Shown: piece after piece, positions 11,938 to 23,808 of the stretch
How the letters are laid out: each line of letters opens with the position of its first letter
Position numbering within the stretch: the first letter of the stretch is position 1
The notes under the pieces: model-generated
What the model was told of the DNA's origin: nothing
Databases searched by the model: none
Seen by the model: the letters and a program-made list of their open reading frames with translations, nothing else
Translations under genes and position numbers: made by a program
NCBI GenBank assembly: GCA_008080615.1
Contig: VIKJ01000016.1
Location: forward strand, 1 to 37,478
DNA length: 37,478 nt
DNA from: Chitinophagaceae bacterium
GTDB lineage: Bacteria > Bacteroidota > Bacteroidia > Chitinophagales > Chitinophagaceae
Reading direction: 5' to 3'

Positions 11938-12582
11938 TTACTTCATTGGGGAGTCAAATGCGCTTAAGAGCTTTATCTCATTGCGATAAAGGATGATTTT
12001 CTTGGCGTTTTCCAGCTGTTTTAACAATCTTGAAATGACTACTCTAGAAGTAGCTAATTCATCGGCAATCGTATTGTGAGAGGCTTTTATAACACTGGAT
12101 CCGCTCAACCGTTGTTTTTCTTTTAAATAGGCAATTAATCGCTCGTCTAGCTTATGAAAAGCAATACTTTCAATCGATTTAAGTAGTTCAATGAAACGCT
12201 CATTGAAACTTCTCATTACATAATTTTTCCAGCTTGGATATTTGCAAAGCCATTCATCCAATTTTACATGGGGAATTCCTATTAGTTCTACATTATCTTC
12301 GGCAATGGCTTTTACTTCACTTTTTTTTGCTTCAACACAACAACTGTAAGCCATCGAGCAGCTTTCGCTACTTGATAAATAGTATAAGAGTATTTCGTTC
12401 TTGTCTTCGTCTAAACGATACACTTTTACTGTTCCTTTTAACACAATAGGCATCATACGAATGTATTTGCCATAGTCCATAATCAGATCTCCTTCATTAT
12501 AATGTTGCAATATTCCAAATTGCTGCATTTCTTGAATCAGGGCCGGCTCAAATACAGCCTGGAGGTTGTCTAAATTGGTCAT
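11938..12582 (-). CDS. Crp/Fnr-family transcriptional regulator with Cys motif
   Basis: The 214-residue protein has an N-terminal cyclic-nucleotide-binding-like beta barrel (about 15-115) and a C-terminal winged helix (HNTIADELATSRVVISRLL near 169-187). The usual phosphate-binding cassette is replaced by a serine/cysteine stretch with C75, C81 and C82; C113 is further on. This argues for redox or sulfur sensing rather than cAMP. The recognition helix keeps the SR pair of Fnr but has Val where Crp and Fnr have the base-reading Glu. It is transcribed divergently from the TolC-adaptor-RND operon and a palindromic site lies between them. Confidence 0.85.
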   Translation of the reverse strand: MTNLDNLQAVFEPALIQEMQQFGILQHYNEGDLIMDYGKYIRMMPIVLKGTVKVYRLDEDKNEILLYYLSSSESCSMAYSCCVEAKKSEVKAIAEDNVELIGIPHVKLDEWLCKYPSWKNYVMRSFNERFIELLKSIESIAFHKLDERLIAYLKEKQRLSGSSVIKASHNTIADELATSRVVISRLLKQLENAKKIILYRNEIKLLSAFDSPMK

Positions 12583-12620
12583 ATACTAAATTCTGTATAA
12601 AGATAAGCAATGCTGCTTTA

Positions 12621-12640
12621 AGTGTTACATAAGTTACACT
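12621..12640. promoter_or_regulatory. Candidate Crp/Fnr-type operator upstream of the efflux operon
   Basis: AGTGTTACATAAGTTACACT is a near-palindrome (16 of 20 positions symmetric) with core GTTAC-ATAA-GTTAC. Its centre (12630.5) is 29.5 bases upstream of the -7 element at 12660, the position expected of a class II activator. No TTTG -33 element is present, as expected if an activator replaces it. The same core and spacing recur at 20818-20831. Confidence 0.6.
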
Positions 12641-12659
12641 ATAGGCATATTTAGGAGTA

Positions 12660-12667
12660 TACTTTTG
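12660..12667 (+). promoter_or_regulatory. -7 element of the TolC-adaptor-RND operon
   Basis: TACTTTTG matches TAnnTTTG perfectly and lies 18 bases before the ATG at 12686. Confidence 0.6.
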
Positions 12668-12685
12668 CCTTCTTAAAATAAGCAT

Positions 12686-13999
12686 ATGGTATATAAAAAG
12701 GCATTTATTTTCTCTCTTTTCTTTATTCAAACATTGGCAATACTTGCGCAAAAATCAGTTAAGCCTTTATTGTTAGAAGACGCTTTACGGGTGGCAATGG
12801 AGCAGAATAAGCAAATAAAATTAGCAATCAATGACCAAAAGATTGCCGAGGCACAGTATAAGCAAACTGATGCTATATTTTTACCTCAACTTAATCTTTC
12901 TTATGCTGGTTTAGTTACAAATCAGCCACTTAGTGCATTCGGATTTAAAATGCAACAAGCACATGTTCAACAATCCGATTTCAATCCTGCTATTTTAAAT
13001 AAACCTGGTGCTGTATCTAATACACTTACTCAATTAAGTGTTCAGCAACCCATTTATAATGCAGATTTAGGTTACATGCGTAAAGCAGCATTAAAACAAA
13101 CTGCTGTTTATGCATTTCAAGTTCAACGAAGTAAAGAAGCAATTGAAATGCAAGTTACCAATGCATATTTGCAGTTAAGTTTTAATTATGAGTTAGTAAA
13201 TGTTTTGCAAGAAGCATTAAATACGGTAAAAGAAATTTATCGATTTACCAATGACCGATATCAGCAGGGCTTACTTCAAAAGTCTGATTTATTAAATGTT
13301 GAAGTTCAAATTAAATCTGCTGAAACTAATTTAGCAGAGGCGCAAACGCAAATTAAAAATAATTCAGATGTACTAAGCCAATTGATGGGAACAACATTAG
13401 GTGAAGTGTACACTACTTCTCCTGTTTTATTTCAATTACCTAAAAAACTTGCAGAAACAGTTTCTATTAATCGGTCAGACATTAAAGCCATGAATATTGC
13501 AATTGATGCTTATGATCTTGCCATTAAAAGTACAAAGCATTCAATGTTTCCAAAGTTAAATGGATTTGCTAATTACCAATTAAATGATGCCAAGCTTTTT
13601 GGTTTTGGAGCAAATGGTTATATGGCAGGTGTTCAACTTTCATGGGATATTTTTAAAGGGAATCAAGCAAAAAATAAAATTGCTACTCAAGTGTTGGAAA
13701 AAAATAAACTACAAGAACAGTTGAATGAACAAACTGAAAAAAGTGATCTTGAAATAAGAAAAACGATAGCACAATTAGCCGATACAAAGTTTAAGATAGA
13801 GCAGCAATCAATTGCAGTTGAACAAGCAAGTGAAGCACTTAGGATTTTACAAAATAGGTATAGTCAAGGTTTGGCAAACACAACAGATGTATTGATGGCA
13901 CAAACCCAATTATCTCAGCAGAAAATGCTAAAAGCACAAGCCATATTCATTCAAAATACTACAATCAACTATTTGAAATTTTTAACAGCTAATCAATAA
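12686..13999 (+). CDS. TolC-family outer membrane efflux protein
   Basis: The 437-residue protein has an N-terminal signal peptide (ending near ILAQ, residues 18-21) and two repeated OEP halves of long amphipathic helices. Each half ends with the family's FTNDRYQQGLLQKSDLLNVE (about 189-208) or LQNRYSQGLANTTDVLMAQ (about 388-406) motif. It forms the outer-membrane tunnel of a tripartite pump with the adaptor and RND genes that follow. It is the first gene of the operon, downstream of the Crp/Fnr-type site. The substrate cannot be deduced. Confidence 0.9.
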   Translation: MVYKKAFIFSLFFIQTLAILAQKSVKPLLLEDALRVAMEQNKQIKLAINDQKIAEAQYKQTDAIFLPQLNLSYAGLVTNQPLSAFGFKMQQAHVQQSDFNPAILNKPGAVSNTLTQLSVQQPIYNADLGYMRKAALKQTAVYAFQVQRSKEAIEMQVTNAYLQLSFNYELVNVLQEALNTVKEIYRFTNDRYQQGLLQKSDLLNVEVQIKSAETNLAEAQTQIKNNSDVLSQLMGTTLGEVYTTSPVLFQLPKKLAETVSINRSDIKAMNIAIDAYDLAIKSTKHSMFPKLNGFANYQLNDAKLFGFGANGYMAGVQLSWDIFKGNQAKNKIATQVLEKNKLQEQLNEQTEKSDLEIRKTIAQLADTKFKIEQQSIAVEQASEALRILQNRYSQGLANTTDVLMAQTQLSQQKMLKAQAIFIQNTTINYLKFLTANQ

Positions 14000-14022
14000 T
14001 TTATAAATAAATATACCTATTC

Positions 14023-15111
14023 ATGAAAAAAATAATCGATTCAACTTTGATCATTCTTGTCCTTTCATTTTTGGCAAGCTGTTCTAGTAAAGATCTAAAA
14101 GATAAAGCTTCTGCTGAAACGCCTATTTTAGTTAGTACTTCTAGTGTATCAGGAGCAAGCGGTATGGGAATAATAGAAGCAAGTGGTTTGGTAGAAGCAG
14201 CGCACAGTGTAAATATAAGTACCCGGGCAATGGGTTATATTACTCGGTTTGATTTAAAAGTTGGGGATCGTGTAAATGCTGGTCAAATGTTGTTTACTGT
14301 GAATAGTAATGACATTAATGCTAAGAAAGCCCAAACTGAAGCTATGATTGATCAAGCCGATGCTGCATTAAAGAGTGCGCAAAAAGATCTTGAAAGATTC
14401 ACCGTTTTATATAAACAGCAAAGCGCATCTGCTAAAGAGTTAGATCAAATTACCTTGCAGTATCAATCTGCTAAAGCAAATGCTATGGCTGTAAGAGCAA
14501 TGAAAAATGAAGTTGCTGCACATTTAGCATATACAACAGTAGTAGCTCCATTTTCTGGAACTATTACGCAAAAAATGGCAGAAGCTGGTAGTATGGCAAG
14601 CCCTGGCATGCCTGTACTAACAATAGAACAAGCAGGAAACTTACAAGTATCTGCATCTGTTTCAGAAAATCAAATTGGCGCTTTGAATATTGGGGATGCT
14701 GCAGAAATGAATATCGAGTCAATTAATAAAACAATAACAGGTAAGATTATACAAATTAACCCATCAGCACAATTTTCTGGAGGACAGTACATTGTAAAAA
14801 TTTCATTGCCTTTAAGTGATAATAAGCTGTATGCTGGGATGTTTGTTCATGTTCAGTTTCCACAAGCAAAAAAAGTAGCAACAAGTGAAACCGGTGTAAA
14901 TATGATACCAGTTAAAGCAATTGTATATAAAGATCAACTCACTGGGGTTTATACGATAAGTGCACAGCAAACAGCATTATTAAGATGGGTGAGATTAGGA
15001 GCAAAGAGGGGAGATTTTGTAGAAGTGCTTTCTGGTTTATCTAGTCAAGAGCAATTTATTTTAAGCGCAGAAGGAAGATTGTATAACGGAGCACCGGTAA
15101 AAACAAAATAA
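14023..15111 (+). CDS. RND efflux periplasmic adaptor (membrane fusion protein), lipoprotein
   Basis: The 362-residue protein has a lipobox (FLASC, C20). It then has a split biotinyl-lipoyl-like domain (VEAAHSVNISTRAMGYI and VVAPFSGTITQK), a helical hairpin between them (about 105-165), and a beta-barrel and membrane-proximal domain. It bridges the RND transporter to the TolC channel in the periplasm. It follows tolC by 23 bases, and the RND start codon lies six bases after its stop, so it is part of one operon. Confidence 0.9.
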   Translation: MKKIIDSTLIILVLSFLASCSSKDLKDKASAETPILVSTSSVSGASGMGIIEASGLVEAAHSVNISTRAMGYITRFDLKVGDRVNAGQMLFTVNSNDINAKKAQTEAMIDQADAALKSAQKDLERFTVLYKQQSASAKELDQITLQYQSAKANAMAVRAMKNEVAAHLAYTTVVAPFSGTITQKMAEAGSMASPGMPVLTIEQAGNLQVSASVSENQIGALNIGDAAEMNIESINKTITGKIIQINPSAQFSGGQYIVKISLPLSDNKLYAGMFVHVQFPQAKKVATSETGVNMIPVKAIVYKDQLTGVYTISAQQTALLRWVRLGAKRGDFVEVLSGLSSQEQFILSAEGRLYNGAPVKTK

Positions 15112-15117
15112 TTGAAA

Positions 15118-18100
15118 ATGGAAAAAGGTTTATCAGGTAATATAGCAAAGGCATTTTTACAATCAAAGCTAACCATCTTATTGATGATTGCTTTTCTATT
15201 GATTGGCGGGTATAGTACTTTATTGATACCACGTGAAGAAGAGCCCCAAATACAAGTACCCATGGCTGATATCTTTATAGGATATCCAGGCGCTTCCCCA
15301 AAGGAGGTTGAAACAAAAATTGCTGCACCAATGGAAAAATTCATTTCCAATATAAAAGGTGTAGAATATGTTTATTCAACTTCTATGAAAGGTCAACTAA
15401 TGCTTATCGTTCAATTTTATGTGGGCGAGGATGTAGAAAAGTCGTTGGTGAAGTTGTATAGTGAAATAATGAAGCATATGGATATAATGCCACAAGGTGT
15501 TACAATGCCTTTGGTAAAACCTCGTGCAATTGATGATGTACCCGTTTTAGGATTTACATTATGGGGGGAGCACTATGATGATTATCAATTAAAGTTAATT
15601 GGGCAAGCATTAGCTAACGAAATTAAGAAAGTTCCTAATGTAGCAGAAGTATCTATTACAGGAGGAAGAAATAAAGAAGTAAAAGTAATTTTAGATAAGT
15701 CCTTAATGGCCTTAAATGGAGTTGATTTAATTGGCATCAGTAAGTTAATTCAAGCTGGTAACGTTCAAAACGATGCTGGAATATTGGTTCGTAACGATAC
15801 AGCCATATCTATTCAAACAGGCAACTTTTTTAATGCAGCAGATGATGTAGCTAAATTAGTTGTAGGCATGAAAAATGGGCAACCTATTTATTTGCATCAG
15901 GTTGCAAAAGTGGAAGAAGCTCCATCAGAAGCAGCACAATATGTATTTTTTGGATATGGTAAAGCGGATACAGCTGGTTTTAAAAAATATGCAGGATCAT
16001 ATCCAGCTATTACGGTATCTGTTGCAAAAAAATCGGGATCTGATGCAATGAAGCTTGCAACAGAAATTCAAGAAAAAGTAAAGCATTTAAAAAAGGATTT
16101 AATTCCAACTGATTTACAAGTATCCGAAACCAGAAATTACGGAGATTCGGCATCACATAAAGTAAGTGAACTCTTGTTCCATTTATTTATATCTATTGTA
16201 GTTGTTACACTATTTGTAATGCTAGCAATGGGTTGGCGGGGTGGGTTGGTTGTGTTTTTATCGGTTCCGGTAACATTTGCACTTACTTTATTTAGTTATT
16301 ATGTGATGGGCTATACCTTAAATAGAATTACACTGTTTGCACTGGTATTCATTACCGGAATAGTTGTGGATGATTCTATTATTATTGCTGAAAATATGCA
16401 TCGTCATTTTAAGATGCGTAAGCTTCCTCCATTACAGGCAGCAATATATGCCATCAACGAAGTGGGGAATCCTACCATATTGGCAACATTTACAGTTGTG
16501 GCCGCAGTTTTACCCATGGCTTTTGTTTCGGGAATGATGGGGCCGTATATGAGTCCTATGCCAATAGGAGCTGCAATAGCCATGATGCTTTCATTGGTTG
16601 TAGCACTTACATTAACACCTTATCTGGGATATATATTTTTAAGAGAGAAAGAAAAGAAAGGAGTAGCTCATCAAGAACATAAGGCTCATGTTTTAGAAGA
16701 AACAGGTGTATACAAAATTTATTATCGTTTCATTCATCCAATGCTTGAAACAAGATGGAAACGTTGGGCCTTTATTTTTGGAACAGTATTGGTGTTGATA
16801 GGTTCAATGTTATTATTCTATACCAAATCTGTGGCTGTAAAAATGCTTCCATTCGATAATAAAAATGAATTTCAGGTTGTGATAGATATGCCAGAAGGTA
16901 CAACACTAGAAAAAACCATGGCAGTTGCGGCTGAAGTTGCTGCGTATGTTTCCGCTCAACCAATGGTAAAAGACTACCAGGGTTATATTGGAACTTCAGC
17001 GCCAATCAGTTTTAATGGATTGGTAAGGCATTATGATTTGCGAATGGCCAGAAGAGAGAGATATTCAAAGTCATGATATTGCAAAGTCAATGCGCTTGCC
17101 ATTGCAAAAGATTGGATTAAAATATCAAGCCAATATAAAACTAGTTGAAGTGCCTCCAGGCCCGCCAGTATTGTCTACGATTGTTGCAGAAATTTATGGA
17201 CCTGATTATGCGCAGCAAATAATAATTGCAAAGCAAGTTGAGCAGCTGATGAAAAAAACAAGTGACGTTGTTGATATAGACTGGATGGTGGAAGATGATC
17301 AGAATGAGTTTCAAATTACAGTTGATAAAGAAAAAGCAATGTTAAGTGGAGTTGCTACTGGGCAAATTACTGCCACTGTTCAGGGTGCTTTATCTGGAAT
17401 GATTGTAGGAAAAATTAACCAACCATCAACTTATCACCAGGTGCCTATTAAACTTCAATTAAGAGACGCCGAAAAAAATAGTATTAGTCAATTGTTAGAT
17501 TTACAAGTTCAGAATAATCAAGAAATCAAAAAGAAGTAGTTTATGTTTTAGCCGATATGGCTGGAAAATTAGAAAGCCCTTCTTATGCAATGTCTGCTAT
17601 GTCTGATAGTTTAAAGAATATTAAATTACCAATTGGTTATACAACACTTAAAGAGGAATATACGGCTCAACCAGTAAATCAAGACGAATATTCACTTAAG
17701 TGGGACGGCGAATGGCAAATAACGTATGAGGTATTCAGAGATCTTGGAATTGCATTTGCAGCGGTAATCTTAATTATTTATATGTTGATTGTAGGGTGGT
17801 TTCAAAACTTTACTGTTCCATTAGTGATGTTAGCCGCTATTCCATTATCACTTATAGGTATCTTATTAGGCCACTGGATGATGGGAGCATATTTTACTGC
17901 AACTTCTATGATTGGCTTCATTGCCTTAGCTGGTGTTATGGTACGAAATTCGGTTTTGCTAATTGATTTTATTAATATTCGGTTGAAAGAAGGGGTGCCA
18001 TTGAAACAATCCATTATAGAGGCAGGGGCTGTGAGAACTACACCTATATTATTAACTGCAGGAGCAGTTGTGTTAGGAGCGGTGATTATTTTATTCGATC

Positions 18101-18216
18101 CTGTATTTCAGGGCCTAGCTATTTCTTTAATGGGTGGAACAATTACTTCTACATTTTTAACCTTGCTGGTTGTTCCATTGCTTTATTATAAAATGATGCG
18201 CGGTAAAGTAAAATAA
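15118..18216 (+). pseudogene. RND efflux permease, interrupted by two out-of-frame deletions
   Basis: Three consecutive reading frames (to 17076, 17033-17539, 17557-18216) reconstruct one AcrB-like inner-membrane transporter of about 1,030 codons. The N-terminal part has the first helix, porter domain and TM4 with GIVVDDSIII, whose Asp pair relays protons. The middle part is the second porter domain; the last part has the C-terminal TM bundle. The first break is after FNGLVRHYDLR (about 17040), where some 15 codons appear lost. The second is at about 17520-17535, where some 20-25 codons before KEVVYVLADMAG are missing, with AATCAA on both sides. The start is the ATG at 15118. All other motifs are intact, so decay is recent or the breaks are artefacts. 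Confidence 0.8.
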
Positions 18217-18226
18217 AAATTATATT

Positions 18227-18535
18227 ATGAAACTATTATTTGTTACAGCTCTTAAGGAGTACAGCGAAGACATTACTTTAATTTTTAAAAAAGCCAATAT
18301 CCATATTTATAGTGCTACGGATACTATTGGTTTTAAAGATGGCGATGAATCTAATTTATTAGATAATTGGTTTAGTAGTGGAGAAGCCAAGTTTGATTCT
18401 GTTTTTGTTTTCTCATTTACTTCCGAAGAACATGTTGATGTTGCAATGCAATTAATTAAAGAACACAATACAACCAGTCAATCTGAATTTCCTATTAGGG
18501 CATTTGTATTGCCAGTTGAAAAATCATCCCATTAA
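18227..18535 (+). CDS. Small hypothetical protein, efflux-operon partner
   Basis: This 102-residue soluble protein starts 10 bases after the RND gene. It has alternating beta and helix (MKLLFVTAL, FDSVFVFSF, IRAFVLPVE strands) compatible with a ferredoxin-like or PII/CutA-type fold. That assignment is only a guess from secondary structure. I do not recognise the family. Its place between the pump and DUF2892 suggests a role in pump or metal/redox homeostasis. It has no signal peptide. Confidence 0.65.
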   Translation: MKLLFVTALKEYSEDITLIFKKANIHIYSATDTIGFKDGDESNLLDNWFSSGEAKFDSVFVFSFTSEEHVDVAMQLIKEHNTTSQSEFPIRAFVLPVEKSSH

Positions 18536-18543
18536 AAAAATAT

Positions 18544-18753
18544 ATGAAAGAAAGAATTGTACGCGCTGTAGCAGGCAGCATTATGTTAGCCTCTGTTTTA
18601 TTAACTTATTATGTAAGTATTAATTGGTTATGGTTAGGTGTATTTGTTGGTTTGAATTTACTTCAGTCATCATTCACTCGATTTTGCCCACTTGAACTCA
18701 TATTAGATCTTGCTGGGGTTAAAGAAACACCAGGGAAAAAGAATTGTTGTTAG
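18544..18753 (+). CDS. YgaP-like transmembrane protein (DUF2892)
   Basis: The 69-residue protein has two hydrophobic helices (about 7-25 and 28-46) followed by FTRFCPLELILDLAGV, the hallmark of the DUF2892 domain that forms the membrane part of the rhodanese YgaP. It ends with a CC pair. It follows the preceding gene by eight bases, closing the operon. In YgaP the domain anchors a sulfurtransferase; here it stands alone, near thioredoxin and rhodanese genes. Confidence 0.8.
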   Translation: MKERIVRAVAGSIMLASVLLTYYVSINWLWLGVFVGLNLLQSSFTRFCPLELILDLAGVKETPGKKNCC

Positions 18754-18774
18754 TGAAGTAAGTGAAATTATTGG

Positions 18775-19935
18775 TTATTTACTTGGTAAATTATTAAGTA
18801 GAAAATCACGCACGTTTCCACCCATTATTTTGTAAATATCTTCCTTATTGAAACCTTCTTTAAGTAAGGCATTTACAATAAGTGGAAGCCCAGTTACATC
18901 AAAGTGTGTACCAATAGCTCCATCAAAATCAGATCCTAAAGCTACTTTATCTACGCCTATTTTATCTGCTACATAACGGATACTCTTTGCAGTAGCTGCA
19001 GCATCTGTTCCACAAACAGCTGTTTCCCATAATCCAATTCCTACTAACCCGTTGCGCTTACCTATTTCCAATAAGTGTGCGTCTGATAAATTTCGGTTAT
19101 TGTCGCAAACACCTTTTACACCAGTATGCGAAATAATTAGTGGACTATTGGTAATGGCAAAAATATCGTCAATGGTTTTTGTAGAGCTATGGGCTAAGTC
19201 AATAATCATATGTAAACTATCCATCGATCGGATAAGTAATTTACCTTTTTCTGTAAGGCCTCCTTTTTCCATGCCGTGTTTAGAGCCAGCCCAAGCATTA
19301 TCAAAAAAATGAGTTAATCCAATATACCTAACTCCAGCATTGTAAAATTCTTTTAGGTTAGCTATTTCATTATTAAGACAATGAGCACCTTCAATTCCTA
19401 GCATTCCTGCTGTAAGGGTTTTTTTTGATTTTCTGTCTTCAATATATGCTTGAAGTGTTTCTTTATTAGTTATGATTCGGAATGCACCATCAGATTTCTT
19501 AGCAGTTTTAAACAGTGCTTCAGTTTGATGGATTGCTCTTTTCTTTACACTAAACCAATCTTCTGGATTACGCAATTGTGCAAAACTTAAGAGTGAAATT
19601 TGATCCGTTTTATCATCATTTTTTTCAATATTTATACCTCTTGGAGCTTTACTCACAATGGTGAAAACCTGAAAAGCCATATTGACTTCTTGCATTCTGG
19701 GAATGTCTACATGGCCATATTCATGCCTCTTTAAATTATCTCTATTCCAAAGCAGTGCATCGCAATGTAAATCTGCAATAAATGGAATGGAATCGTACCA
19801 TATTACTTTTTGCGGATTTGTATCTACTAAGGTTACTACATTGGTTGTTTTGTCTATGTAGCTAGGAGCAAAAATGAAAAAACAAATTGCTGCCAATATG
19901 AATAGAAGAGCAAGAACTTTGACTATTTTTTTCAT
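18775..19935 (-). CDS. Membrane dipeptidase (peptidase M19)
   Basis: The 386-residue protein has an N-terminal hydrophobic anchor or uncleaved signal (about 5-24) and then a renal-dipeptidase TIM barrel. The zinc-site motifs are DLHCD near residue 56, the GIEGAH glutamate, GLTHFFDN, LAHSS and SHTGVKG. It would hydrolyse dipeptides on the periplasmic side. It is convergent with the efflux operon (21-base gap) and downstream of the carbonic anhydrase gene on the same strand. Confidence 0.88.
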   Translation of the reverse strand: MKKIVKVLALLFILAAICFFIFAPSYIDKTTNVVTLVDTNPQKVIWYDSIPFIADLHCDALLWNRDNLKRHEYGHVDIPRMQEVNMAFQVFTIVSKAPRGINIEKNDDKTDQISLLSFAQLRNPEDWFSVKKRAIHQTEALFKTAKKSDGAFRIITNKETLQAYIEDRKSKKTLTAGMLGIEGAHCLNNEIANLKEFYNAGVRYIGLTHFFDNAWAGSKHGMEKGGLTEKGKLLIRSMDSLHMIIDLAHSSTKTIDDIFAITNSPLIISHTGVKGVCDNNRNLSDAHLLEIGKRNGLVGIGLWETAVCGTDAAATAKSIRYVADKIGVDKVALGSDFDGAIGTHFDVTGLPLIVNALLKEGFNKEDIYKIMGGNVRDFLLNNLPSK

Positions 19936-19947
19936 TTTTATTTCAAT

Positions 19948-19975
19948 TTACTGTTTTTCAATAATGTAACAGTAA
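19948..19975. repeat. Inverted repeat TTACTGTT-N12-AACAGTAA
   Basis: Perfect 8-bp arms lie 13 bases upstream of the dipeptidase ATG, in the 54-base gap after the carbonic anhydrase stop. There is no T-run on the minus strand, so an operator is more likely than a terminator. The inner TTACTG/CAGTAA arms recur at 22070-22091. Confidence 0.5.
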
Positions 19976-19989
19976 ATTTTATATTTGCA

Positions 19990-20691
19990 CTATTCGCGCC
20001 GGAAAATCTTTACATTAAAATTGTGTAAATCATATCTGGCCCCAACTATCTCTAATTCCTTATTCTCTAATTTTTCCGATATAATATTCGATTGCATTTT
20101 TAATTGTTTTATTCCATGCAATACATTAGCTATTACACAATCATCTAAACGATTAGGATCATTAGCTGCAATTGCTTTAATTTCAATTTCTGCTTTAAGG
20201 CTATCAATGATATCTTTTATATGACCTGGCGCAACACCTCCTTTTACGAATGCATCAACAGCCCCACAGCTTTCATGCCCCATGATCATGATTAATTTTA
20301 CATTTAAATGCTCAACAGCATACTCAATACTCCCTAGTTCTACATTTCCTATAATATTACCTGCAGTTCTAATTGTAAATATATCTCCAACACCTTGGTC
20401 AAATAAAAGTTCCGGCGAAACCCTGCTATCCGAACAGCAAACTATAATGGCAAATGGATGCTGTTCTTTTACTACAGACTTTAATCTTTCTAAACTTTCA
20501 TCTGGATGAATGGATTTTGCGTTAGCAAAACGAATATTTCCGTTCATTAATCTCTCCAGCGGTGTTTCATTTTTTATGCTAGTTTCCGTAGCTTGTTTAG
20601 GTTGTGAAGGTTGTTTGCAACTACTATAACAAAGGATAGAGAGAATGAAAATACTTATTTTAACTATGGACACTTGATTTAAAAATTCCAT
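19990..20691 (-). CDS. Beta-carbonic anhydrase, predicted lipoprotein
   Basis: This enzyme interconverts CO2 and bicarbonate. The beta-class zinc site is complete: C86 and D88 in CCSDSR, H139 and C142 in GHESCGAV. The 233-residue protein begins with a hydrophobic segment ending YSSC (C25), a lipobox-like site. The enzyme would therefore be exported and membrane-anchored, unlike most cytoplasmic beta-class enzymes. A TACCTTTG element at 20712-20719 (minus strand) serves as its -7, and an FNR-like palindrome lies further upstream. Confidence 0.88.
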   Translation of the reverse strand: MEFLNQVSIVKISIFILSILCYSSCKQPSQPKQATETSIKNETPLERLMNGNIRFANAKSIHPDESLERLKSVVKEQHPFAIIVCCSDSRVSPELLFDQGVGDIFTIRTAGNIIGNVELGSIEYAVEHLNVKLIMIMGHESCGAVDAFVKGGVAPGHIKDIIDSLKAEIEIKAIAANDPNRLDDCVIANVLHGIKQLKMQSNIISEKLENKELEIVGARYDLHNFNVKIFRRE

Positions 20692-20711
20692 ATGATTTAT
20701 TTTAGAATAAG

Positions 20712-20719
20712 CAAAGGTA
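20712..20719 (-). promoter_or_regulatory. -7 element of the carbonic anhydrase gene
   Basis: Read on the minus strand this is TACCTTTG, a perfect TAnnTTTG match 20 bases upstream of the ATG at 20691. Confidence 0.55.
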
Positions 20720-20762
20720 CAAACTTGAGTATTCTATAAGGCATATAGAATCAGTTGAATAA

Positions 20763-20776
20763 ATGATTTTAATCAT
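20763..20776. promoter_or_regulatory. FNR-like palindrome ATGAT-N4-ATCAT
   Basis: ATGATTTTAATCAT has the TGAT-N4-ATCA core of an FNR box. Its centre is 50.5 bases upstream of the carbonic anhydrase -7 element, two helical turns more than the 29.5 seen at other sites here, so it would be a class I position. It could also serve the divergent gene at 20879. Confidence 0.45.
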
Positions 20777-20817
20777 CTTTGGCGGTTTAAATTTTAACTA
20801 TACTGTATACTTATTAT

Positions 20818-20831
20818 GTAACCTTTGTTAC
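20818..20831. promoter_or_regulatory. Candidate Crp/Fnr-type operator GTAAC-N4-GTTAC
   Basis: GTAACCTTTGTTAC is a perfect 5-4-5 palindrome centred at 20824.5, exactly 29.5 bases before the -7 element at 20854. Core and spacing match the efflux-operon site at 12621-12640. Confidence 0.6.
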
Positions 20832-20853
20832 GTTCACATGATCTATTCGAGTT

Positions 20854-20861
20854 TAATTTTG
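20854..20861 (+). promoter_or_regulatory. -7 element of the small-membrane-protein/thioredoxin operon
   Basis: TAATTTTG matches TAnnTTTG perfectly, 17 bases before the ATG at 20879. A GGAGA follows at 20864. Confidence 0.6.
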
Positions 20862-20878: not shown

Positions 20879-21115
20879 ATGAAAGAAACGCTGTTTCAAA
20901 ATTGGAATTGGATGAGGGCACTAAGACTGATAATTGGTTTAACTATCATCATTCAGGCTATAATGGGCAAGGATTGGGTTTTGGGATTTGCAGGAGTATT
21001 TTTTTCTGCTATGCCAATCCTTAATTTGGGGTGTTGTGGTTCGGGAGCATGTTATACACCTATAAGGAAAGAGAGTGACTCAACTAAAGCAATTATTTAT
21101 GAAGAAGTGGATTAA
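20879..21115 (+). CDS. Small Cys-rich membrane protein (YgaP-membrane-domain-like)
   Basis: The 78-residue protein has two hydrophobic segments (about 14-27 and 32-46) and a cysteine cluster GCCGSGAC near residues 50-57. I start it at the ATG at 20879, preceded by GGAGA, rather than the TTG at 20825, which would lie upstream of the promoter element. It is a small membrane protein of the sort found beside thioredoxin and rhodanese genes in Bacteroidota. Molecular function is unknown; the cysteines could bind metal or carry thiol/persulfide. The next gene overlaps it by 17 bases. Confidence 0.7.
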   Translation: MKETLFQNWNWMRALRLIIGLTIIIQAIMGKDWVLGFAGVFFSAMPILNLGCCGSGACYTPIRKESDSTKAIIYEEVD

Positions 21116-21308
21116 TACCAATATACTCTATATCATAGGGGCAATACTAGGAGCTATAGCAGGATTTTTTTATTGGAAATTGATTGGTTGCTCTTCGGGC
21201 TCCTGTGCCATTACCTCAAAGCCACTAAATAGTACAATTTATGGTGCTGTAATGGGGGCACTCATATTGAGTTTGTTTAAAAGGGAGCAAAAAGTAGTTA
21301 ATAAATAA
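21099..21308 (+). CDS. DUF6132-like small membrane protein
   Basis: The 69-residue protein has two membrane helices (about 7-25 and 45-60) separated by [17 protein letters not shown], a Cys-containing loop that I associate with DUF6132. The start is the ATG at 21099 inside the preceding gene (17-base overlap), indicating coupled translation. It ends 10 bases before the thioredoxin gene. Confidence 0.7.
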
Positions 21309-21318
21309 TTTTACTGTA

Positions 21319-21615
21319 ATGACATTTAATGAGATTATACAATCGGATAAACCTGTGCTAGTAGATTTTTTTGCAGAATGGTGTGGACCTTGCAAAGTAA
21401 TGGCACCTATTTTGAAAGATGTTAAAGCTGATTTAGGTGATACGACTAGTATTTTAAAAATAGATGTAGACAAGAATCCTGGTACCGCTGCTGCTTATCA
21501 AATTCAGGGAGTACCAACATTAATATTATTTAAAAATGGAAAGCCACTTTGGAGGCAAAGTGGGGTAGTATCTAAAAGTACACTTATAAATATAGTAAAG
21601 CAGTATAGTGAATAA
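21319..21615 (+). CDS. Thioredoxin
   Basis: The 98-residue thioredoxin fold protein has the active site WCGPC (C22, C25) and the GVPTL cis-proline loop. There is no signal peptide, so it is a cytoplasmic disulfide or persulfide reductase. It is the third gene of the operon controlled from 20854. Its company suggests service to the thiol/persulfide chemistry of the island; the housekeeping trxA may well be elsewhere. Confidence 0.92.
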
Positions 21616-22442: not shown

Positions 22443-23129
22443 TTATATTGACATTACTTTGCTTTGGCAAATGAAATTGCTAACGGGTATTCCTGTATTG
22501 CGAATTGCATTGAAGCCTCCAGATATTTCGGTAAAATTTCTGTAACCTCTTGCCTGTAAAATAGAGGCGGCAATCATGCTTCTATAACCGCCTGCGCAAT
22601 GAATATAAAAGTGATCTTTAATCCATTCATTAATATATGCTAGGGGCTTGCTAAATGCATTTTCAATGTGTTCGGCTTTATACTCTGATTCTTTTCGAAT
22701 ATCAATAATGGTTTCTTTTTTAGTATCAACATTTTCTGCAAACGCGTCAGCATGTATACGATCAATGGTATCAGCTTCTTTGCCTGCATTCATCCAAGCA
22801 TTGAATCCGCCGGCTAAATATCCAAGAACATGATCAAATCCAACCCTACTAAGCCGAGTAATAATTTCTTCTTCTTTTCCGGGTTCAGCAACCAAAATAA
22901 TTGGATGATTTACATCTACTATCATGGCGCCAACCCAAGGCGCAAAATCACCTGAAATCCCAATATTGATAGACTGCGGAATAAACCCTAAATAAAAATC
23001 ACTATGTTCTCTTGTGTCTAGGATAAGTGCTTCAGTATTTTCAGCGAATGTTTCAAACTCATCAGGAGAAAGTGCTTTCATCCCTTTATTTAATACAAGA
23101 TCAAATGCTTCGTATCCTTGTTTATTCAT
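22443..23129 (-). CDS. Tandem rhodanese domains (C-terminal part of a broken MBL-rhodanese protein)
   Basis: The 228 residues form two rhodanese domains. The first (about 15-118) has no active-site cysteine (LVAEPGKEEE at that position) and is structural. The second (about 124-215) has HCAGGYRS with C178, so it is a competent sulfurtransferase. Its beginning MNKQGYEAFDLVL is what normally follows the linker after an MBL domain in Bacteroidota MBL-rhodanese-rhodanese proteins. Here it overlaps the upstream MBL frame by ATGA, with the linker apparently deleted. It may be translated by reinitiation, or the split may be an artefact. Confidence 0.8.
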   Translation of the reverse strand: MNKQGYEAFDLVLNKGMKALSPDEFETFAENTEALILDTREHSDFYLGFIPQSINIGISGDFAPWVGAMIVDVNHPIILVAEPGKEEEIITRLSRVGFDHVLGYLAGGFNAWMNAGKEADTIDRIHADAFAENVDTKKETIIDIRKESEYKAEHIENAFSKPLAYINEWIKDHFYIHCAGGYRSMIAASILQARGYRNFTEISGGFNAIRNTGIPVSNFICQSKVMSI

Positions 23130-23788
23130 GGCATAAATGAATCTCTATTCGGTTGATTTAATGCATAGTTCATCTTTTTTTGATTTCCTAAACTATCCAC
23201 CGTTTCTTTCATCATATTTTTTCCGCATTCACTTCCTGCACCATGCGCTGGATATACAATCACATCATCCGCTAAGGGCATTATTTTATTCATTAAGCTA
23301 TCGTATAATAAACCCGCTAATTCTTCCTTGGTTAAATTGGCAGCTTTTTGTGCAAGATCAGGACGGCCTACATCCCCCAAAAACAGGGTATCGCCACTAA
23401 AAATGCAATAGTCTTTTCCTTTTTCGTCAATCAATAAAAAAGTACTGCTCTCCATTGTATGACCAGGTGTGTGCAACACTTTAATTGCGATATCACCGAT
23501 GATAAAAATTTCATTGTCTTTTGCGGTAATACAATCATAACCTGCTACAGCCGTAGGGCCAAATACAATTGAAGCACCTGTTTTTTTACTAAGGTCTACA
23601 TGACCGCTAACAAAGTCGGCATGAAAATGTGTTTCAAAAATATATTTTAGTTGAACTTTATCTTTTTCTAAACGCGCTAAATAAGGTTGAACCTCTCTCA
23701 ATGGGTCTATAATTGCGGCTTCGCCATTGCTGGTAATATAATAAGCTCCTTGAGCAAGGCAACCAGTATAAATCTGTTCTATTTTCAT
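23126..23788 (-). CDS. Persulfide dioxygenase-like metallo-beta-lactamase protein
   Basis: The 220-residue protein is an MBL-fold, ETHE1/persulfide-dioxygenase-like enzyme. HFHADFVSGH (H54, H56, D58, H63), HTPGHTMESS and SGDTLFLGDVGRPDL supply the iron ligands. Such enzymes oxidise glutathione or protein persulfides to sulfite. The start is the ATG at 23788; the GTG two codons earlier adds nothing. The frame runs out right after NYALNQPNRDSF, where related proteins continue through a linker of some 17-20 residues into rhodanese domains, so this is the N-terminal part of a split fusion. Confidence 0.82.
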   Translation of the reverse strand: MKIEQIYTGCLAQGAYYITSNGEAAIIDPLREVQPYLARLEKDKVQLKYIFETHFHADFVSGHVDLSKKTGASIVFGPTAVAGYDCITAKDNEIFIIGDIAIKVLHTPGHTMESSTFLLIDEKGKDYCIFSGDTLFLGDVGRPDLAQKAANLTKEELAGLLYDSLMNKIMPLADDVIVYPAHGAGSECGKNMMKETVDSLGNQKKMNYALNQPNRDSFMP

Positions 23789-23808
23789 GTACACAATTTT
23801 TGGAGATA

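Follow-up and report, generated by a model that had tools for sequence, protein, structure and literature searches.

Two palindromes of the GTnAC-N4-GTnAC type in a 37,478-nucleotide stretch of Chitinophagaceae DNA (the window) are probably operators at which the Crp/Fnr protein of the gene at 11938..12582 would act as a class II activator; we hold this joint claim with good confidence. The two palindromes lie at the same distance from their -7 elements, and very probably they are sites of one Crp/Fnr-type protein, which would explain the equal spacing. An efflux pump operon and an operon for thioredoxin and a small membrane protein would be two targets of a conserved reactive-sulfur regulon. 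The original prediction was essentially right, but it missed the sulfur theme, the wider scope and the different gap (18-19) on the regulator's own side.

Two predicted operators and their operons in the window

Operator 1, a predicted Crp/Fnr-type site (GTTACATAAGTTAC), occupies 12624..12637 on the plus strand (centre 12630.5, predicted to correspond to -41.5 of the efflux operon) and is followed on the same strand by the efflux-operon -7 element TACTTTTG at 12660..12667. The predicted operator 2 (GTAACCTTTGTTAC; 20818..20831, plus strand, centre 20824.5) is followed by the -7 element of the thioredoxin operon, TAATTTTG, at 20854..20861 (plus strand). TAnnTTTG is perfect at both sites and stands 22 nt past the palindrome end (gap 22), with 29.5 nt from the centre to the first T of the -7 element. 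The coordinates, the elements and the equal spacing that had been predicted were thus exact for both sites. The description as GTnAC-N4-GTTAC palindromes held for the placing of the sites, but the dyad of operator 1 is imperfect, because its core is GTTAC-N4-GTTAC; symmetry extends to 8 of the 10 pairs over 20 bp (AGTGTTACATAAGTTACACT).

Palindromes as such were not significantly enriched in the window (8 matches with at most one mismatch, compared with 4.4 expected; 12 of 100 shuffles reached 8). The pairing with the -7 element was significant, since TAnnTTTG has a frequency of 4.8e-4 per strand-base in the window, which by our own arithmetic gives a chance of about 7e-6 that two palindromes have a -7 element at an equal offset, at any of 31 offsets. 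When the window was scanned with a degenerate pattern (12 or more of the 14 fixed bases, gap 21-23), the two known sites were the only ones returned, with no weaker third site, for example before the MBL-rhodanese genes. Throughout the source genome (2.0 Mb, 64% complete), GTNACNNNNGTNAC was found at 23 places, as against 103 for the reversed pattern, and a perfect -7 element at gap 22 accompanied 2 of the 23, both in the window. We inspected the surroundings of 15 genome sites, and most of those outside the window lay inside ORFs; an intergenic palindrome on contig C61 showed TATCTTTG at gap 24.

Operon 1 begins on the plus strand with an outer membrane efflux protein (PF02321; 12686..13999), the same first gene as is found behind 19 operators, and continues with a HlyD/CusB-type membrane fusion protein (14023..15111) and an RND pump gene (ACR_tran; 15112..18216). 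Two small losses have split the RND gene into three frames. They are equivalent to about 15 and 27 residues of a 1070-aa homologue (L190:5809-9018) and situated at about 17043-17051 and 17509-17521; either decay or an assembly collapse in the MAG may account for them. A 102-aa protein follows (18227..18535, plus strand), with a PII similarity that is weak and below the cut-off (E 0.046); its relatives keep this place behind the RND gene in L175, L178 and L190. Next comes a YgaP-like membrane protein (PF11127; 18544..18753, plus strand). Operon 2, also on the plus strand, encodes a small membrane protein (20879..21115; weak YgaP-like similarity, below the cut-off), a DUF6132 membrane protein (21099..21308) and thioredoxin (21319..21615). 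A beta-carbonic anhydrase gene (19990-20691) is divergent from this operon and has no -7 element at gap 22 on its side. An MBL-rhodanese gene (22443-23794), split near 23129-23135, where about 20 residues are lost, is without operator.

Conservation of the spacing

The check that had been proposed, conservation of the palindrome and of its spacing before orthologous operons, was run, and both were kept in 6 of 6 divergent promoters and in 11 of 11 closest thioredoxin-operon orthologues. Six loci of the same genus, counting that of the window, have the divergent layout; all of them share an identical GTTACATAAGTTAC at 22 nt from TAnnTTTG, but have different spacer and leader sequences. One of the six, L021, is without pump genes; there, as judged by eye, a relative of the YgaP-like gene comes immediately after the same promoter. 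The orthologues of operon 2 were fetched by protein and not by motif; the 11 closest, again with the window's, carried the palindrome at gap 22 (nine) or 23 (two). Distant homologues of the small membrane protein in L073, L074 and L075 were associated with GTAAT-N4-GTCAC sites, which differ from the motif by one base and also lie at gap 22.

When gaps of 10-40 were allowed in 101 related genomes, we found 129 palindrome/-7 pairs, with 56 at gap 22, 10 at gap 23, 8 at gap 21 and no more than 7 at each of the remaining gaps. Gap 22 accounted for 60 of 70 pairs in 80 named loci fetched by regulator alignment only, a set that includes Mucilaginibacter, Ferruginibacter, Aequorivita, Maribacter, Cellulophaga and Larkinella. 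In a phylum sample, it was found in 54 of 79 pairs from 48 genomes of class Bacteroidia, and outside the class in 1 of 16 pairs (149 genomes). The pattern scans required a perfect -7 element, so that weaker or differently placed sites are uncounted.

The regulator locus of a Maribacter (L237) has five gap-22 promoters formed from four palindromes. They serve non-homologous operons that share the geometry, and shared ancestry of one promoter is therefore insufficient as an explanation. Single operators with a gap-22 -7 element on both strands were seen in L237 and L231, respectively 6900 and 1631 nt downstream from the start of the regulator; one palindrome apparently serves two divergent operons there. 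We give next to no credence to the reading that the spacing match is due to chance or to inherited sequence without function. The palindrome count of the window alone, being near expectation, would suit it, but the spacing stays fixed despite differing spacers, in non-homologous operons and in several families, and the gap-22 peaks in the 101 genomes, the 80 regulator-chosen loci and the phylum sample refute it.

The regulator and its proposed mode of action

The regulator (214 aa; 11938..12582, minus strand) has a cNMP-binding-type domain (PF00027) and a Crp-type winged helix (PF13545), both above the cut-off and together the mark of the Crp/Fnr superfamily, and both domains of its predicted fold align with chains of CRP and of FNR. 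The recognition helix carries R180, V181, S184 and R185. Orthologues or relatives were found in 70 of 100 genomes (E ≤ 0.001), and residue 181 in 43 orthologues was Val (36) or Glu (7). A gap-22 site was present in 29 of 57 genomes with a regulator orthologue and in 3 of 43 without (p 2.6e-6), and the third base of the half-site was G in 15 of 28 half-sites from Glu181 genomes as against 10 of 184 from Val181 genomes (p 1.8e-9); these Fisher values overstate certainty, because half-sites and genomes are related, and are a guide only. A control with other gaps also gave a weak association (p 0.025), and about half of the regulator-bearing genomes were without a perfect gap-22 site. The predicted link between the regulator and the motif is supported by this co-occurrence and by the covariation of residue 181 with the third base, and so is the proposal that the divergently encoded Crp/Fnr protein is the candidate binder.

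It is unlikely, in our view, that another Crp/Fnr protein binds the sites, be it an FNR-like paralogue or an HcpR-like protein, and that the divergent gene is a bystander. The source genome does have a second cNMP-domain protein, which is FNR-like and reads only 198 aa, and GTAACnnnnGTTAC is the published motif of HcpR2 from Bacteroides and other anaerobes (PMC1274295). Against this, the sites cluster around regulators of the 11938-12582 type in the 80 loci chosen by it, and the site covaries with residue 181 of the divergent regulator. Furthermore, hcp was found neither in the source genome (no PF03063 match; 64% complete) nor among the sampled regulon targets. The gene of the FNR-like paralogue lies on a contig of the source genome (G000, C169:1900-4200; L263); the protein has an N-terminal C-x2-C start, and its frame seems to stop early, before a recognisable recognition helix.

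For HcpR2 of Bacteroides, Clostridium and Thermotogales, the consensus GTAACnnnnGTTAC has been ascribed to loss of Glu181 (PMC1274295). This consensus fits operator 2 exactly and operator 1 with one change, and the published rule, by which GTAAC-type sites accompany the loss of Glu181 (PMC1274295), agrees with the covariation observed here. In contrast, HcpR2 has Pro181 and controls hcp, while the present regulator has Val or Glu at this position and sulfur-gene targets. Membership in HcpR2 was rejected, as Pro181 occurred in 0 of 43 orthologues. P. gingivalis HcpR is reported to bind heme (PMC12750200); it was not among the phmmer matches to solved structures, which excludes nothing.

The predicted class II position near -41.5 follows from mapped flavobacterial promoters: the mapped starts of Flavobacterium psychrophilum place the sigma-A box TAnnTTTG at -12 to -5 (PMC9723704). 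With gap 22, an operator would span -48 to -35, with its centre at -41.5, a value that is transferred to the window sites from the Flavobacterium start-site map. At -41.5, CRP and FNR are established to act as class II activators. In the Flavobacterium-based numbering, both window sites are centred near -41.5 and overlap the -33/-35 region, and a TTG at -33 (spacings 19-23 from the -7 element) was found in none of 56 sites, a result partly forced by the fixed half-site. The likeness to the class II systems of E. coli CRP and FNR extends to the two-domain fold, the dyad operator and the 29.5 nt from its centre to the first base of the -10/-7 element. The differences are the Bacteroidota sigma-A promoter with TAnnTTTG and the GTnAC half-site with Val181 for Glu181; cAMP or an iron-sulfur cluster is without evidence in the present regulator. 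We propose that a dimer of the regulator would bind GTnAC-N4-GTnAC centred at -41.5, stand in for the missing -33 element and activate sigma-A RNA polymerase as a class II activator.

In the direction of the regulator gene itself, the divergent region has its best -7 element at gap 18-19 (six loci); in the window, the candidate is TATCTTTA (12598..12605, minus strand), at gap 18 from operator 1. As this gap is not 22, the site is suggested to act differently on the regulator side. There its centre would be at about -37.5 to -38.5, and the dimer would probably cover the -33 region and dampen its own synthesis. We infer that one dimer would activate the pump operon and dampen the regulator gene. 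In some Flavobacteriaceae (L227, L237 and L238), the regulator follows DUF983 behind a gap-22 site; being inside such an operon would mean positive feedback there. Activation and repression are not distinguishable from spacing alone, and the persulfide sensors SqrR and CstR are repressors, so that a regulator at -41.5 could instead repress both operons until a signal releases it. We think this very unlikely: many operons share an exact -41.5 and lack a -33 box, which is the signature of a class II activator, repression does not need one fixed distance, and the position of the regulator gene in the three flavobacterial loci also argues against it.

A predicted reactive-sulfur regulon and its possible signal

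Genes were called behind 128 distinct sites with gaps of 21-23, 113 of them at gap 22. The first gene was most often an MBL-rhodanese fusion (25), which in relatives is fused, has about 470 aa and is the commonest regulon member; then came the efflux outer membrane protein (OEP; 19), the small membrane protein of operon 2 (17), YgaP-like and DUF983 proteins (9 each), rhodanese and TauE (6 each), SulP and fatty-acid hydroxylase (4 each). At 2 of the 128 sites it was a CoA-disulfide-reductase-like FAD protein with a rhodanese domain. Later genes, by Pfam, encode thioredoxin, DUF6132, YeeE/YedE-type sulfur transporters, universal stress protein, OsmC and YHS proteins; SQR-like proteins and the OEP/HlyD/RND pump are also members. 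The independent loci of the phylum scan had the same gene kinds. From what is established for these families, they share a theme, the handling of sulfide, persulfide, sulfite and thiosulfate, and as judged from gene content, the genes behind the 128 sites are a reactive-sulfur regulon. The efflux and thioredoxin operons, which had been predicted to belong together, both recur in this one regulon in relatives.

The known sulfane-sulfur and persulfide regulators belong to the ArsR, CsoR, sigma-54-dependent, LysR or MarR families. Like them, the present regulator would control a set of sulfide and persulfide detoxification genes: SqrR, CstR, FisR, OxyR and MarR-family proteins have similar kinds of targets, namely persulfide dioxygenase, rhodanese, sulfur transport and thiol redox (PMC9143464, PMC6831875, PMC11211675). 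No Crp/Fnr-type regulator of this sort was found in the open-access literature. Cys75 was present in 43 of 43 orthologues, and Cys81 and Cys82 in 38 of 43 each. In the AlphaFold model (mean pLDDT 89.6), these cysteines flank or sit on helix 76-84, before strand 90-94, a region that we take, by comparison with CRP, to be the place of the cAMP-binding cassette. The best solved-structure match by sequence was the Crp/Fnr regulator 3DV8 of the PDB (E 8.8e-18), with cysteines aligned at 75 and 81; its entry names no function.

The conserved cysteines, together with the sulfur regulon, suggest a sensor of persulfide or polysulfide, and the signal would react with Cys75 and/or Cys81/Cys82. This sensing through the cysteines is the weakest step of the proposal, and we place it a little below an even chance. 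Neither the fold nor the class II geometry nor the type of motif is new. It is conceivable, and nearly as probable as the contrary, that the regulator founds a Crp/Fnr subfamily, a C-x5-C-C persulfide or polysulfide sensor that acts as class II activator of reactive-sulfur handling across class Bacteroidia. In the open-access literature, to which our search was confined, we found no earlier description of a Crp/Fnr reactive-sulfur regulator in Bacteroidota.

It is rare for a Bacteroidota transcription factor to have its operator, regulon and promoter geometry known. In the present case, sequence gives access to all three, in Chitinophagaceae as well as in Flavobacteriaceae and further families, and this makes the predicted regulon directly testable in a tractable flavobacterium. 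The variation of residue 181 offers a natural test of how Crp/Fnr specificity is set. Through the predicted regulon, reactive sulfur would be connected with an RND efflux pump and with several unnamed membrane proteins (YgaP-like, DUF6132, DUF983); the regulator could plausibly be what controls how a large phylum handles sulfide and persulfide.
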